Origin: Thermincola carboxydiphila
Lineage (GTDB): Bacteria; Bacillota; Thermincolia; Thermincolales; UBA2595
Length of the DNA: 52,120 nt
NCBI GenBank assembly: GCA_016841725.1
Contig: JAENYP010000020.1
Span: 1-52,120, forward strand
Direction: 5' to 3'
Under the pieces are notes generated by a model, which was given only the letters and a program-made list of their open reading frames with translations, had not been told where the DNA came from and made no database searches. Positions within the stretch are counted from its first letter, which is position 1; the number at the start of each line of letters is the position of its first letter. Shown in pieces: positions 28,359 through 50,810 of this stretch. The position numbers and the translations under genes were made by a program.

Positions 28359-28388
28359 TTGACGTTGCGTAAAGGTTTATAGTAGAAT
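28359..28388 (+). promoter_or_regulatory. Promoter of the TipAS-type MerR gene
   Basis: TTGACG (28359-28364), 18-base spacer, TAGAAT (28383-28388). The slightly long spacer contains TAAAGGTTT and fits a promoter that a MerR protein could twist into activity. A second TTGACA lies at 28353-28358. Confidence 0.6.
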
Positions 28389-28405
28389 TGTCAGGAGGTG
28401 AGGAC

Positions 28406-29185
28406 ATGGAATACACAGTGCAGAAACTAGCCAAAATGGCGGGCATCAGCTCCCGGACCCTGCGTTATTATGATGAAATCGGAATGCTTAACCCGGCGCG
28501 AATCAATTCTTCGGGATACCGGATTTACAGGCAGAAAGAAGTTGACCGGCTGCAGCAGATACTTTTTTACAGGGAATTGGGTGTCACTCTGGAGGAAATC
28601 AGGGCTATCATCACCGGGCCGGCTTTTAGCGCTGCCGGCGCTCTCAGGCAGCACCGTGAAAAACTGCTGGCGAAACGGGAACAGCTGGATATGTTAATAG
28701 TCAATGTGGAAAAAACCATAGCTGCCGAAGAAGGGAGAATCAAAATGACTGATAAAGAAAAATTTGAGGGTTTTAAACAAAAAATGATTGATGATAATGA
28801 GAAGAAGTATGGTGAAGAAATCAGAGAAAAATACGGGAATGAGCAGGTTGACAGGTCAAACCAAAAAGTCAAAAACATGACTCAGGAACAATATGCCCAG
28901 GTGGAGAAACTGGGTGAGGAGGTGCTCACTACCCTGGAACAGGCCTTTGCCACCGGGGACCCAGCCGGTGAACTGGCTCAGAAGGCTGCTGACCTGCACC
29001 GGCAGTGGCTGTGCTTCTTCTGGGGCAGTTACACCAAAGAAGCTCATGCCGGGGTGGCCCAGATGTATGTGGATGACGAGCGGTTTACAGCGTATTATGA
29101 CAGGAAACAGCCTGGTACAGCCGCTTTTCTGCGGGATGCGGTTTTCATCTACACCGGTATGGCGGACAAAGATAATGCAGGTTAA
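28406..29185 (+). CDS. MerR family regulator with TipAS ligand-binding domain
   Basis: A 259-residue protein. The N-terminal ~70 residues are a MerR winged helix (YTVQKLAKMAGISSRTLRYY, GYRIYRQKEVDRLQQILFYR). A dimerisation helix follows (about 75-115). The C-terminal ~145 residues resemble the TipAS antibiotic-recognition domain (YGEEIREKYGNEQ; HRQWLCFFWGSYTKEAHAGVAQMYVDD). TipA-like proteins trap thiopeptides and other drugs and activate export genes. ATG 28406 follows GGAGGTGAGG. The Mef-like pump begins about 440 bases downstream on the same strand, separated by a terminator and its own promoters. Confidence 0.92.
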   Translation: MEYTVQKLAKMAGISSRTLRYYDEIGMLNPARINSSGYRIYRQKEVDRLQQILFYRELGVTLEEIRAIITGPAFSAAGALRQHREKLLAKREQLDMLIVNVEKTIAAEEGRIKMTDKEKFEGFKQKMIDDNEKKYGEEIREKYGNEQVDRSNQKVKNMTQEQYAQVEKLGEEVLTTLEQAFATGDPAGELAQKAADLHRQWLCFFWGSYTKEAHAGVAQMYVDDERFTAYYDRKQPGTAAFLRDAVFIYTGMADKDNAG

Positions 29186-29251: not shown

Positions 29252-29280
29252 TTGATAATATGTAAAGAGTGTGTTACACT
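29252..29280 (+). promoter_or_regulatory. First promoter of the Mef-like pump leader
   Basis: TTGATA (29252-29257), 17-base spacer, TACACT (29275-29280). The start site near 29287 would place the leader peptide's ribosome binding site within a short 5' leader. Confidence 0.6.
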
Positions 29281-29309
29281 AAAAATAGTTTTAGAAAAGA
29301 GGTGTAAGA

Positions 29310-29348
29310 GTGGGCATTGCATCGATGAGACTTCGCTTTTTAGTTTAG
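29310..29348 (+). CDS. Macrolide-type leader peptide of the Mef-like pump
   Basis: A GTG start at 29310 follows AGAGGTG and encodes MGIASMRLRFLV, stopping at 29346-29348. The SMRLR core is the same as in known macrolide-arrested leaders of the MRLR class (ErmD leader, and the Mef leader MTASMRLR, recalled from published work). The R-L-R is the basic-X-basic motif at which macrolide-bound ribosomes stall. The stop codon lies at the edge of the first attenuator hairpin. This strongly supports macrolide-inducible expression of the downstream pump. Confidence 0.85.
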   Translation: MGIASMRLRFLV

Positions 29349-29418
29349 GCACAAATTAAACTAAATAAAAATAAGGTTAAAACGCCTGGTGATGCAGGCT
29401 TTTTGTTGTACCTTATTT
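29339..29418 (+). promoter_or_regulatory. First attenuator of the Mef-like pump
   Basis: Hairpin 1: TTTAGTTTA (29339-29347) with TAAACTAAA (29357-29365); it includes the last leader codons and the stop, so a ribosome stalled at RLR would disrupt it. Hairpin 2: GCCTG (29384-29388) with CAGGC (29395-29399), then TTTTTGTT, a terminator. Outer arms AAATAAGGT (29369-29377) and ACCTTATTT (29410-29418) are also perfectly complementary and enclose hairpin 2. Confidence 0.7.
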
Positions 29419-29460
29419 CTCGTATTGTTGCAATGAACATTCATATACGCTTTTGGTGCT

Positions 29461-29469
29461 TGGTATAAT
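29461..29469 (+). promoter_or_regulatory. Second, extended -10 promoter of the Mef-like pump
   Basis: TGG-TATAAT (29461-29469) fits an extended -10 element. No convincing -35 box is seen. It would start a second leader RNA at about 29476. Confidence 0.5.
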
Positions 29470-29485
29470 ATAGATACTAATCACA

Positions 29486-29577
29486 GACTGCTTATGCGGT
29501 CTTCATGTGCTATGTTTTATATGAGTATAAAAGGGTTGTAGGTGAATTACATTCATTTGCAGTCCTTTTTTGTTTTT
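29486..29577 (+). promoter_or_regulatory. Second attenuator with a 15-codon open frame
   Basis: GACTGC (29486-29491) can pair locally with GCGGTC (29496-29501) or with GCAGTC (29559-29564). The latter lies in the 3' arm of a long hairpin (AAAAGG...CCTTTT, about 29529-29569) followed by TTTTTGTTTTT, so the pairing would act as an antiterminator. A frame from ATG 29494 (MRSSCAMFYMSIKGL) stops at 29539-29541 within the terminator stem, but it has no clear ribosome binding site. Confidence 0.5.
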
Positions 29578-29621
29578 CAAATAGTTGGACAAATTTACTT
29601 GCAAAAGAGGTATAGAATTAT

Positions 29622-30863
29622 ATGGAAAATTGGGATATAAATAAAGATTGGAAAAAGAAAATATTACTGTTTTTGGCTAGCCAGACCTTATCGCTTTTTG
29701 GATCGTCATTGGTTCAGTATGCAATAATGTGGTATATCACTTTAAAAACTCAGTCAGGTGTAATGATGACGATAGCTATTGTTTGTGGTTTCCTGCCCAC
29801 GTTTTTTCTTTCTCCCTTTGCCGGAGTCTGGGCTGACCGTTTCAATCGAAAAACACTAATTATCCTATCAGATTCGATAATCGCTATGTCAACTCTCATT
29901 GTTGCGATACTGTTTCTTACAGGATATGATTTTTTGTGGTTGTTCTTCGCAGTGTCTGCCATTCGTGCCCTTGGAACTGCCATTCATACGCCGGTAGTGG
30001 GAGCCATTATGCCACAACTTGTGCCGGAAGATCAACTTACTAGAGTGAACGCCTTATACGGAAGTATAATATCCTTCGTGATGTTGTTATCACCCATTCT
30101 TAGCGGCGTATTTCTGACAATCGCTACTATCGAAACAATACTTTTTATAGACGTATTTACTGCAGCTGCAGCAATCATGGTATTACTTTTATTTTTGCAG
30201 GTTCCGACCCATGCCAAAGCCTTAACTCAGCAAACCGATAGCTATTTTAGCGATATGCGCAACGGTTTCGCCTACATTAAAAATCATGACTATATAAAAA
30301 ACTACTTTGTGTTTTGCGCATTTTTCTTTATCCTGGTCGCACCCGCTGCATTTCTTACACCTCTGCAGGTTACACGCAGTTTTGGTGATGATGTTTGGCG
30401 TCTAACGGCAATTGAAATTACTTTTTCCATAGGTATGATGGTGGGCGGTGTTATCATGGCCTCATGGGGAGGGTTGAAAAATAAGGTACACACAATGACA
30501 TTGGCCAGCCTGATTATTGGAGCCTGTACTTTTGCATTTGGGGTCATAACCAATTTTTGGATATATTTATTTGTCATGAGCTTGGTTGGGATTGCAATGC
30601 CAATTTTTAACACACCGGCTACGGTTTTATTACAGGAGAAAGTAGAAGTAGATTTCTTAGGAAGAGTATTTGGGTTTTTTGGGATGATCTCAAGTTCGAT
30701 GATGCCCCTAGGAATGCTTATGTTCGGGCCTCTGGCTGATGTTATTGAAATTGAATGGCTGCTTATGGGAACCGGCTTTATGCTTTTTATTCAGGGTTTT
30801 TTCCTATTAGGTAACAAAGTGCTGATTGAGGCAGGGAAATCAACTTTTAAAAGCAGAATATGA
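29622..30863 (+). CDS. Mef-like MFS macrolide efflux transporter
   Basis: A 413-residue major facilitator with about 12 membrane segments. It resembles the macrolide-efflux MefA branch: the N-terminal QTLSLFGSSLVQYAIMWYI, motif-A-like GVWADRFNRKTL, AIRALGTAIHTP and the C-terminal FLGRVFGFFGMISS all have counterparts in Mef proteins. It is preceded by a Mef/ErmD-class leader peptide and two attenuators, which makes macrolides the most likely substrates. The gene is visibly more AT-rich than the flanking genes, which suggests horizontal transfer. The start follows AGAGGT. Confidence 0.88.
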   Translation: MENWDINKDWKKKILLFLASQTLSLFGSSLVQYAIMWYITLKTQSGVMMTIAIVCGFLPTFFLSPFAGVWADRFNRKTLIILSDSIIAMSTLIVAILFLTGYDFLWLFFAVSAIRALGTAIHTPVVGAIMPQLVPEDQLTRVNALYGSIISFVMLLSPILSGVFLTIATIETILFIDVFTAAAAIMVLLLFLQVPTHAKALTQQTDSYFSDMRNGFAYIKNHDYIKNYFVFCAFFFILVAPAAFLTPLQVTRSFGDDVWRLTAIEITFSIGMMVGGVIMASWGGLKNKVHTMTLASLIIGACTFAFGVITNFWIYLFVMSLVGIAMPIFNTPATVLLQEKVEVDFLGRVFGFFGMISSSMMPLGMLMFGPLADVIEIEWLLMGTGFMLFIQGFFLLGNKVLIEAGKSTFKSRI

Positions 30864-30967
30864 ATGCCGATTAAGCAGGAAATATGAGAGATTTTAGAGA
30901 AATTATAGGTACAATTGAAATATATAACTGATATAAATATCAGATAGTTTCATAAGGATGAGGTTTG

Positions 30968-33900
30968 ATGCCAATGGGCGTTTATAAAATCGGGAAGAAA
31001 CTTTTTATTGGTTTCGCCATTGCAGTAATGATTGCCGGAATAAGTTTTGCAGTAATCGCTTTTACGGATACCAACGCAAAGGTTGCCTCTCTTTCGTCCC
31101 GAAACGGATTGCTGGACTTGGCGCAGTGGGATCCGGGAAGAGATGGTTTTTTAAGTCTGAGTGGTGAATGGGATTTTTATTGGGACAGGTTCCTTAGCTA
31201 TGAGGAACTTAAGGATTCGGGTCTGGAAGCTGATGCAAAGGCAGAAGTGCCGGGTGTCTGGAATGAATGTGAAATCAATGGCAGCAAGCTCCCCGGTTTC
31301 GGATACGCGACATACCGGCTGAAGGTAATTAACGCAAGAGAGGATCAACTGCTTGCGTTTCGGATACCTTCAGAGTCTACAGCATACCGGATGTACATTA
31401 ATGACAGGCTGGTTGCCTCTGCCGGGACCGCAGCAGCAGATAGGGAAAACTTCAGACCGGAATACAACCCCAATACGCTTCAGATTTTACCTCCGGGAGC
31501 TGAATTCGATATTGTGGTCCACATGTCAAACTTTGTCTATTCCCGTGGGGGTATGTGGTATTCAATTGACATGGGCACACCGGAACAGATTCAGAATCTG
31601 GACAGGCGGATTATTTACAGGGATATTTTTCTGTTTGGCAGTTTTTTCATTATGGGGATGTACTATTTAAGTATTTTCCTGATGAGGCGTGAAGACAAGA
31701 GCAGTCTGTATTTTGTCCTCATGTGTGTTGTTGTTATTGGCCGGACGAGTATACATGGGGATTATGCAGTGTACAGGCTGCTGCCTTTTATTAGTTATAA
31801 CGTCATAGTTTTTATCAATTATGCCACATTATACTGGTTTCCCACAGCTTTTCTGCTGCTCCTGAGGGAGCTGTTCCCTGAAGAGGTGCCCCAAAAGGCA
31901 GTCAGGGCAGTTGTCATCTATGCGGCGGCAATAACACTGACGACATTGCTGCTTCCTATCCATATATATACGAGGTACACATATTTCGTCCTGGCAATGC
32001 TGACACTTACATCTGTATATACTGTGATATGTACCGGTATTGCTTTCACGCGGGGCAAACAGGATTCATTAATAGTGTTATTTGGGGCATTGGCGCTGGT
32101 TGGCGGTGCCGCTTACGATATCCTGGTTTATTTAAAACTGATTCCACAATATGTTGGCGAAGTGTCCAGCTTTGGTTTTTTTGTACTGATCTTTCTCCAG
32201 TCCTTTGTCCTTGCCAGGAGATTTTCCCAGGCCTTCCGGAATGTTAACGAAATGTCAGGTCAATTGCTCCGGATGGATAAGCTCAAGGATGAGTTTCTGG
32301 CTAATACATCACATGAACTGCGGACACCGCTCAACGGCATTCTTGGCATAACTGAGGCCATGCTCCGGGACAGCGAAGGGGCTCTGAATGAAGCACAGAG
32401 ACAGAATCTTTCCATTGTGGCGGTGAGCACCAGGAGGCTGGCGAACCTGGTTAATGATATTTTGGATTACTCCAGGCTGAAGTATAGTGATCTCAAACTT
32501 AATCTTAAACCCGTTAGATTAGAAGCTGTCATTGAAACAACACTGAATGTGTTCCGGCAGTTGACCAACCCGCAACAGGTGGAAATATCCAGCGACATTC
32601 CGGGTAAACTCCCCCCGGTTATGGCTGATGAAAACCGGCTGGCACAGGTCATGTACAATCTACTCGGTAATGCGGTGAAATTTACCAAACAAGGGCATAT
32701 CAGGGTTGCGGTAAAAGAAGCGGGTGAAATGCTGCAATTCTGTGTTGAGGATACCGGTGAGGGTATTCCTGAAGAAAAATTCGGGGATATATTCAAGTCC
32801 TTTGAACAGGTGGATACTTCTCTTACCCGCAAACATGGCGGTACAGGACTGGGTCTTCCCATCACGAAATTCCTGGTTGAATCACATGGGGGCAGTATAT
32901 CGGTCTCATCAGAGTTAGGTAAAGGCTCAAAGTTTACTTTTACCCTGCCTGTTGCCCGGGAACAGGCCGCAGAAAACGAGACCGTTATTCCTGTCTATGG
33001 ACCTGTCACCACCGGCCGGGAGTCTCGCTCTCTCAGGATATTGGGGGCAGGAGCACATGTTTTGGTGGTTGATGACGAGATTGTAAACCTACAATCTGCT
33101 GCTGCCATTCTGAAAACAGAGGGATACTCTGTCACGGCGGTAGACAGTGGTCAGGCAGCATTGGAAGAGGTTCGGGGGCAAAATGATATTTCCCTGGTGG
33201 TATTGGATGTGATGATGCCGGAGATGTCCGGGTATGAAGTCTGCCGGAGAATAAGGGAAAACCTGTCCCACTACGACCTGCCTGTGCTGATGCTGACCGC
33301 CAAAACCAATACTGAGGATATTGTGAGAGGCTTTGAAGCAGGGGCCAATGATTACCTGCCAAAACCGGTTGAGGCCGAAGAGCTGCTTGCCAGGGTGAAG
33401 ACACTGGTGAACCTGAAAGACTCGGTAGATAAGGCCAAGGCGGCTGAAGTGGCTTTTCTGCAGGCTCAAATCAAACCTCATTTTCTCTTTAATGTCCTCA
33501 ACACTATATCTTCATTCTGCGATACCGACCCGGAACGGGCGGGGAAGCTTATCAGTGATTTGGCCAACTATCTCAGGCACAGCTTTGATTTTAAAAACCT
33601 TGATTTATTTGTCCCCCTTGATGCCGAAATCAGCCTTGTTAAATCATATTTAGAAATAGAGAAGGCCCGGTTTGGTAATGAAATGAGGGTGGAATTTGTT
33701 TTGGATGACAGTATACAGATAGATATACCGCCTTTATCCATACAGCCTCTGGTTGAGAATGCCATCAGGCACGGTTTGAGGAAAAGAGCGGGAGGAGGTA
33801 CTGTTACCATATCGGTTGGCAAGGTCCCGGACGGAGTGCAGGTAACCGTAAGCGACAATGGGCCGGGGATTCCTTCCGAAAAGCAGGACAGGCTTTTTGC

Positions 33901-34045
33901 AGCTGATAATGTAAGTGGTGTTGGCCTAAAAAACATTCATTTCCGGCTGAAGAAGATTTATGGAACAGGCCTCGCTATAGAAAGTGATCCCGGTAAAGGA
34001 ACAAAGGTCTCCTTTACAGTACCGATTGGAGGTGTTTTGCCTTGA
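30968..34045 (+). CDS. Hybrid sensor kinase with two kinase modules (HisKA and LytS type)
   Basis: A protein of about 1025 residues. Order: N-terminal membrane segment; extracytoplasmic jelly-roll-like domain (about 40-210, [12 protein letters not shown]); seven-membrane-segment 7TMR-DISM-type region (about 215-420); HisKA with [10 protein letters not shown] (His449) and first HATPase ([21 protein letters not shown]); receiver with Asp747 ([12 protein letters not shown]) and a KP motif; then a second kinase of the LytS/His_kinase type with QIKPHFLFN (His838) and a second HATPase ([17 protein letters not shown]). ATG 30968 follows AAGGATGAGG. The stop overlaps the BTAD response regulator start (TTGA). 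It likely senses an envelope or carbohydrate signal and feeds that regulator. Confidence 0.92.
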
Positions 34046-35136
34046 TTCGGGCAATAATCGTTGAAGATGAGCGTCCTTCGGCTGATAAAATGGAGAAACT
34101 GCTTGGAGACAGCGGAATTGTCGAGATAACGGGGAAGTTTACGGATCCGGTGGAAGCGCTGGGATTCATAAAAAAGGTTAAGATAGATGCCGCTTTTCTC
34201 GATATTGAGATGCCGGAGCTGGACGGCTTCCAACTCGCCAACCATATCCTTGATCTGCAGAGCTGGGCTGCAGTAGTATTCGTAACTGCCTATAACGAAT
34301 ATGCTGTGGAGGCCTTCCGGTTAAATGCCCTGGATTACCTGATGAAGCCGGTGGATAAAAACAGGCTGCAGGAAACCCTGGACAGAATCGTTCAGGAAAA
34401 AGACCTCCAATTGAACCCTTTCCAAATGAAGGTGCGCTGTTTTGGCAGGTTCAAGGTAATTATCGGGTCCAGCGAGGTAAAATTCCGTACCGGTAAGGCG
34501 GAGGAATTACTGGCCTGCCTTATTGACAGCAGGGGCAGGGAAGTCAGCCGCAATGAAATAATCGACCGCCTATGGCCGGATTATGATGGTGACAGGGCGG
34601 TGGCCCATTTCAATACCACCCTGCACTATGTCAGGAAAGCTTTGCTGCGTAATGGCATCAAAGCCCCTATCGAGCACTTAAGGGGTTCATACCGGCTGGA
34701 TGCCGGTTCTATTGACTGTGACGGACACAGGTTTTTGGCGCGGGTGTCTGCTTCAGATGAGATTAATGCTATCACCATTCCGGAATATGAGGAGATTGCT
34801 GCTCTTTACATCGGAGATTACCTGGGGGACAATGAATTCCAGTGGGCGGAAAGAAACCGGATGCTGTTCAGGGAAAAGTACATCCAGCTGATTATAAAAA
34901 TGGCTGATTATTATAACACGGTCGGAAATCATCAGAAATTAATTGAAATCCTGAAGGCAGGCCTGACTTGCGAACCACTGCACAGCACATTGAATTACAG
35001 GCTCATTGAGGCTTTACTGGCGGCAAAAGATACAGTTGCCGCAGGCCAATATTATGATATTTACAGAAGTGGTATAAAAAACGAATTAGGCATGGAACCT
35101 GATGACAGGTTCAGGAAACTGATGAAGCAGACTTAA
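34042..35136 (+). CDS. Response regulator with winged-helix and BTAD output
   Basis: A 364-residue regulator. Residues 1-120 are a receiver with an intact phosphosite (FLDIEMP, Asp54), Thr and Lys (YLMKPVDKN). Residues about 130-225 are an OmpR-type winged helix, and the C-terminal ~130 residues form a BTAD (SARP-type) helical repeat domain. The TTG start overlaps the kinase stop, so the two are translationally coupled. It probably activates transcription of nearby envelope genes when phosphorylated by the LytS-type or HisKA module. No operator was identified. Confidence 0.92.
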
Positions 35137-50704: not shown

Positions 50705-50780
50705 AACAGATCACGTAACTGGCGGATAGTGGGGATACCCACAGGGAGCGTGATTGGTGATGATTATCGACCGCCTGGGT
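50705..50780 (+). promoter_or_regulatory. ZTP riboswitch (pfl motif)
   Basis: The sequence contains the conserved blocks of the pfl/ZTP aptamer: TCACG..ACTGGCGGATAG, a short GTGGG/CCCAC stem, GGGAGCGTGA, and the downstream CCGCCTGGG (50771-50779). GGCGG (50721-50725) and CCGCC (50771-50775) can form the family's pseudoknot. It senses ZTP/ZMP, which builds up when folate-dependent AICAR formylation is limited. The gene it controls uses ZMP as substrate. Confidence 0.95.
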
Positions 50781-50810
50781 AGAATAGAGCCCAGGCGGTA
50801 TTTTATTTTA
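50770..50810 (+). terminator. Expression-platform terminator of the ZTP riboswitch
   Basis: ACCGCCTGGG (50770-50779) pairs perfectly with CCCAGGCGGT (50790-50799), followed by ATTTTATTTTA. Its 5' arm is the pseudoknot strand of the aptamer, so ligand binding should prevent the terminator and switch transcription on. Confidence 0.93.

Follow-up and report, generated by a model that had tools for sequence, protein, structure and literature searches.

The region preceding the MFS exporter gene in the window, i.e., the whole 52,120-nucleotide stretch of Thermincola carboxydiphila DNA analyzed here, is judged from its sequence to be a variant of the macrolide leader-peptide attenuator, and it probably functions as a ribosome-stall-controlled transcription attenuator of the macrolide type placed before a chromosomal exporter. 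The region contains a leader open reading frame (ORF) that is conserved in homologous elements, two strongly folding domains, and relatives located before other genes, while we infer induction, drug stalling and the antiterminator pairing. An earlier note on this DNA had described a Mef-like pump behind an SMRLR leader peptide and two tandem attenuators; its claim regarding the leader holds, whereas the double attenuation that it described as unusual is not borne out in that form. The features discussed are listed in Table 1. With this element, a regulatory mechanism known mainly from clinical resistance genes gains a chromosomal branch.

Table 1. Features of the leader region and the exporter gene, in positions of the window.
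Feature	Position	Strand	Basis
Promoter candidate P1, TTGATA-17-TACACT; expected start near 29287	29252..29280	+	consensus scan 9/12
Leader domain, a large stem-loop in which 29425-29454 pairs with the SD and start region; corresponds to mef(E) R1/R2	about 29297..29454	+	fold, alignment
Shine-Dalgarno (SD) AGAGGTG of the leader ORF	29298..29304	+	sequence; AAAAG-GGTG block invariant in three-way alignment
Leader ORF encoding MGIASMRLRFLV; predicted to stall the ribosome when Leu8 (29331-29333) occupies the P site	29310..29348	+	sequence, homologous leaders, ErmDL analogy
Upper helix, AATAAGGT (29370-29377) with ACCTTATT (29410-29417)	29370..29417	+	kept in L107 and L108; folds
T1, first terminator of the earlier note; 5-pair hairpin and TTTTTG	29384..29404	+	-9.1 kcal/mol, z -2.5
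Conserved switch segment TTGTTGCAATGAACATTCATATACGCTTTT; partner of the SD/leader, with the T2 5' arm as a possible alternative partner	29425..29454	+	alignment, folds
Second promoter of the earlier note, TTCATA-18-TATAAT; unproven; overlaps conserved RNA segment	29440..29469	+	consensus scan 10/12
15-codon frame MRSSCAMFYMSIKGL; probably untranslated	29494..29541	+	no Shine-Dalgarno; ATG absent from aligned homologs
Intrinsic terminator T2; 19-pair hairpin and T-run	29529..29576 (hairpin 29529-29569)	+	-17.6 kcal/mol, z -5.4
MFS efflux transporter, 413 aa, nearest model TIGR00900; export function predicted	29622..30863	+	ORF and profile models

The leader ORF has a GTG start, comprises 12 codons and ends with a stop codon at 29346-29348, and its ribosome-binding site is positioned five bases before the GTG. 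It represents the sole short, SD-led ORF containing MRLR within the 52-kb window, compared to a chance expectation of 0.27 such ORFs in first-order random windows, with SMRLR present in 0 of 30; these statistics are based on the window and upstream segments. The residues ASMRLR are common to this leader and the Mef(A) leader, MTASMRLR. In the case of ErmDL, stalling has been shown to occur with Leu7 of the RLR motif occupying the P site (PMC8298421). The -10 hexamer of P1 has a counterpart at equal distance in two homologous elements, L107 (TACAAT) and L108 (TATAAT), the latter being preceded by TTGAAT 17 upstream, as read from the sequences, while the consensus scan over 2.3 kb returned 11 matches where 6.5 are expected by chance. 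Judging from its SD, the aligned promoter and an R-x-R stall motif that is kept in homologous elements, the leader ORF is genuine, as the earlier note had proposed for its SMRLR leader, and a short SD-led ORF with such a motif is thus present 5' of the exporter gene.

The homologous elements were identified by a blast search of positions 29290-29621 against 398 genomes, which returned two homologs aligning over the leader and/or the switch segment, i.e., L107 (E 1.3e-10), encoding the leader MITAMMRVRNLV before a TM1586-type nitroreductase gene, and L108 (E 7e-6), encoding MIFAMRKRYLG before HflX. The middle residue of the R-x-R motif varies among the three leaders (RLR, RVR and RKR) while both arginines stay, which is the expectation for a +X+ stall motif (PMC8298421), and the segment TTGCAATGAACATTCATAYAC is also kept among them. 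A sequence-only model, R2, furthermore detected L130 (approximately 1467-1939; E 1.8e-6), a weaker match than the former two, in which a MutS2 gene is located behind a related attenuator whose leader, MSVSELTN, is devoid of R-x-R. Two other matches of the R2 search, L131 and L127, were rejected as chance matches, L131 being located inside a coding frame. L113 and L117 were also set aside, the similarity there being limited to a string of 23 bases. No Rfam family was convincingly matched by the window, L107, L108 or L130, and the matches to the window returned by E-value (BSnc120, BTnc231 and rimP) were dismissed as being far below gathering scores.

The elements before HflX, nitroreductase and MutS2 were not found described in the literature and Rfam searched, although RLR leaders preceding hflX are in themselves already known (PMC6310831, PMC8632094). 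For example, a Listeria HflX homolog that confers lincomycin and erythromycin resistance is under the control of an RLR-leader attenuator (PMC6310831). Compared by description, the Listeria rli80-hflXr system and uORFC-6-1, a motif found 5' of hflX, resemble the window element in possessing an RLR leader and a transcription attenuator, the window homolog L108 likewise preceding HflX. It is tentatively suggested that the elements found here constitute an undescribed, portable family of +X+ leader-attenuators in Bacillota, controlling drug exporters and ribosome-rescue genes (MFS pump, HflX, nitroreductase and MutS2), in which the 5' arm of T2 would mimic the ribosome-binding region of the leader such that both compete for one RNA segment. 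The T2 5' arm, AAAAGGGTTGTAGGTGAAT, does resemble the SD region, AAAAGAGGTGTAAGAGTG, as read from the sequence. The presence of the ribosome-rescue-linked HflX and MutS2 behind related switches suggests a common stall-sensing switch for export and rescue.

The leader domain was found to fold strongly, with 29289-29456 reaching -54.9 kcal/mol (z -6.2), and the same domain has z scores of -5.6 in L108, -3.5 in L130 and -2.2 in L107. Mapping of the window pairs on the alignment indicated that L107 and L108 retain most of the basal helix, and L107 accounts for both of the two-sided changes observed; covariation is weak, as three to four homologs are known. The helix AATAAGG/CCTTATT is kept across the window, L107 and L108. 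The hairpin with T-run that the earlier note had regarded as a first terminator does exist, yet it is weak and its inner pairs are kept in none of L107, L108 and L130, while the surrounding helix is kept in L107 and L108; T1 is therefore more likely to form the apex of the leader domain than to act as a main terminator in its own right.

The distal hairpin, T2, is likely to be the terminator of the system, and the hairpin and T-run behind the second terminator of the earlier note are confirmed in the sequence, with a predicted intrinsic terminator located between the leader ORF and the exporter gene. L108 and L130 possess hairpins homologous to T2 with changed stems (z -6.1 and -5.6, respectively), and that of L130 has GTAGGTGAA...TTCATTTGCA in common with the window, while L107 is without T2. 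The T2 core (GCAGGTGAA...TTCATTTGC) also occurs in a hairpin behind a chemoreceptor gene in L128 (approximately 1615-1665), so that it may represent a wider terminator motif.

The overall arrangement most closely recalls known macrolide resistance leaders. The mef(A)/mef(E)-msr(D) attenuator (RF02862, sRNA_1300) shares with the window a promoter, SD, SMRLR leader, large leader stem-loop, distal terminator and MFS pump, and the mef(A) leader of phage phi1207.3 displays the same layout, in which SMRLR is followed by a short hairpin and GCTTTTTTGTTGTGCTTATTT, and then by the distal terminator. In mef(E), the proximal part forms one 44-bp stem-loop (R1/R2) that constitutes the ribosome-responsive part, leader translation is required, and coverage by RNA-seq ends at the distal terminator (PMC4335068). 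A hairpin with a T-run before a second terminator is thus a known architecture. The window differs in that its leader is extended by FLV and in the sequence of its pump (see below). Furthermore, RF02862 was absent among covariance matches to the window up to E 5, and R1, a covariance model built from nine mef-type leaders, scored 8.1 bits in the wrong register, and RNA-level identity with the mef leader was therefore dropped even though the layout agrees. The erm(D)/erm(K) leader (MTHSMRLRFPTLNQ) resembles that of the window in its SMRLRF core and short tail and in two downstream hairpins with T-runs, and this leader type is also found before five of the pump orthologs described below; however, its RNA sequence differs, and a DNA search of the genome to which the window belongs returned no match to it.

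These comparisons bear on the reading of the earlier note, according to which two independent attenuators act in series, T1 being governed by the SMRLR leader and followed by a second promoter to which a separate terminator, antiterminator (GACTGC at 29486-29491 with GCAGTC at 29559-29564) and 15-codon frame belong. This arrangement is considered unlikely, despite the T-runs on both hairpins, the promoter match between them, the ability of GACTGC to pair with GCGGTC or GCAGTC (read from the sequence), the two adjacent terminators reported for erm(K) (PMC4335068) and the two hairpins of an erm(D)-type leader (L087). The first hairpin lacks strength and conservation, the GACTGC alternative is absent in L108, and mef(E), with the same layout, ends its transcripts at the distal hairpin (PMC4335068). 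The second promoter is present as a consensus match, of a kind expected by chance within the 2.3 kb scanned, and the 15-codon frame, having neither an SD nor an ATG in aligned homologs, is probably not translated. Nor is the arrangement unusual, since two hairpins before one gene also occur in mef(A) and erm(D) leaders and at several pump orthologs, in line with the two erm(K) terminators.

Under the preferred model of a single attenuator, transcription would start near 29287, and when the drug is absent and the leader unstalled, the SD and start region would pair with 29425-29454 to give a single large stem-loop, with T1 at its tip, after which RNA polymerase would stop at T2. A macrolide or ketolide would stall the ribosome at Arg7-Leu8-Arg9, thereby occupying the leader half of the stem-loop, and the freed segment could then trap the T2 5' arm and allow read-through into the pump gene. 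In line with the model, the segment was predicted to pair with the leader when the latter is free (mean P 0.77), while a ribosome modelled as stalled at Leu8, with the T2 3' arm not yet made, shifts its pairing to the T2 5' arm (0.40, compared to 0.00 in the free state); identical values (0.40 and 0.00) were obtained for L108. The fraction of shuffled motifs matching this pairing is 0.10 and 0.05 for the window and 0.22 and 0.03 for L108, which is marginal, and thus the antiterminator step, and with it the link from leader to terminator, is put forward as an interpretation of the modelling. Equilibrium folds still formed T2 even with the leader masked (P 0.94-0.96), so that antitermination would have to be kinetic.

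It is very unlikely that the same attenuator operates instead via a mef(E)-like dIR1, whereby the post-leader AAATAAAAATAAGG would pair with the T2 3' side CCTTTTTTGTTTTT in place of CCTTATTT. While the mef(A) post-leader segment AATAAGAAAAGCAG pairs with the terminator CTGCATTTTTTTATT in folds, dIR1 deletion data exist for mef(E) (PMC4335068), and a mostly complementary stretch is discernible in the window by inspection, the pairing is absent from the masked folds of both the window and L108, and the mef-type RNA models fail to match the window.

The exporter itself can be called Mef-like, as in the earlier note, only loosely. It is 28-30% identical to the Mef(A) proteins encoded by streptococcal phages, and its scores against the Mef models (143-205 bits overall) fall far under the curated NCBIfam cutoffs (675-870), i.e., 194.4 vs 675 for Mef(A), 204.6 vs 800 for Mef(B) and 150.7 vs 870 for Mef(C). 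The best full-length match, TIGR00900, likewise remains below its curated cutoff (229.3 bits vs 319.6), while the MFS superfamily model PF07690 is matched above its gathering score (111.2 vs 33.4). This low identity to Mef(A) is compatible with a leader that is vestigial or differently triggered, sensing general ribosome stalling or another drug class, with a pump that is not a macrolide pump, as are the precedence of MutS2 by a related leader without R-x-R (L130) and the induction of the Listeria RLR leader by lincomycin as well. Such a role is nevertheless regarded as quite unlikely, given that ASMRLR is the same as in the Mef(A) leader and that L107 and L108 retain R-x-R even though the codons have changed.

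Orthologs of the pump, 52-78% identical, are spread over many Bacillota, with a match at E 1e-80 in 46 of the 398 sampled genomes, while nothing close to the pump or leader was found in the viral contigs and plasmids searched. When 59 upstream regions were inspected for SD-led ORFs carrying R-x-R close to the start, such leaders were present at eight of these orthologous pump loci, compared to one on the reverse strand. Besides that of the window, they are of two kinds, namely ErmD/ErmK-like leaders such as MKYYIRLRFQTLNR (L018, L050, L051, L058 and L043) and mef-like leaders, corresponding to Rfam RF02862, such as MYSIRLR (L029 and L045, and also L101, farther upstream of the pump). Two further loci, L053 and L056, possess MYSLFL/MHSMFL leaders, again with two hairpins, which we take to resemble the MsrD leader. 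R-x-R leaders of at least three types that look unrelated thus occur within one pump family, and drug sensors therefore appear to have been swapped between genes. ErmD-like leaders are also found in front of erm(D), of a putative RNA methyltransferase gene with msr(I), mef(F) and mph(N) behind it, and of an SDR gene on plasmids.

On plasmids of Latilactobacillus and Acinetobacter, ErmD-type leaders were observed before genes for SDR-family oxidoreductases (L088, 1801-1913, and L090, 1801-1937), which possibly represent an unrecognised macrolide-inducible gene. Mef-type (RF02862-like) leaders were also observed before other genes (L095, L104 and L096) in two genomes of Desulforamulus, the genus to which L001 belongs, and in L096 an additional short frame, MYYIFI, which is similar to the MsrD leader, is located right behind the mef-type leader. 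A decayed second pump copy without a leader was detected as 60-72% identical pieces with internal stops (L010 and L011; G000:C14:32172-32667, minus strand). In the window, a same-strand gene directly 5' of the leader and pump encodes a MerR-type regulator with a TipAS antibiotic-recognition domain (28388-29185), while a hybrid histidine kinase and, behind it, a response regulator (30965-35136) are encoded 3' of the pump, also on the same strand, and a ZTP riboswitch (RF01750, 58 bits) is present at 50705-50787.
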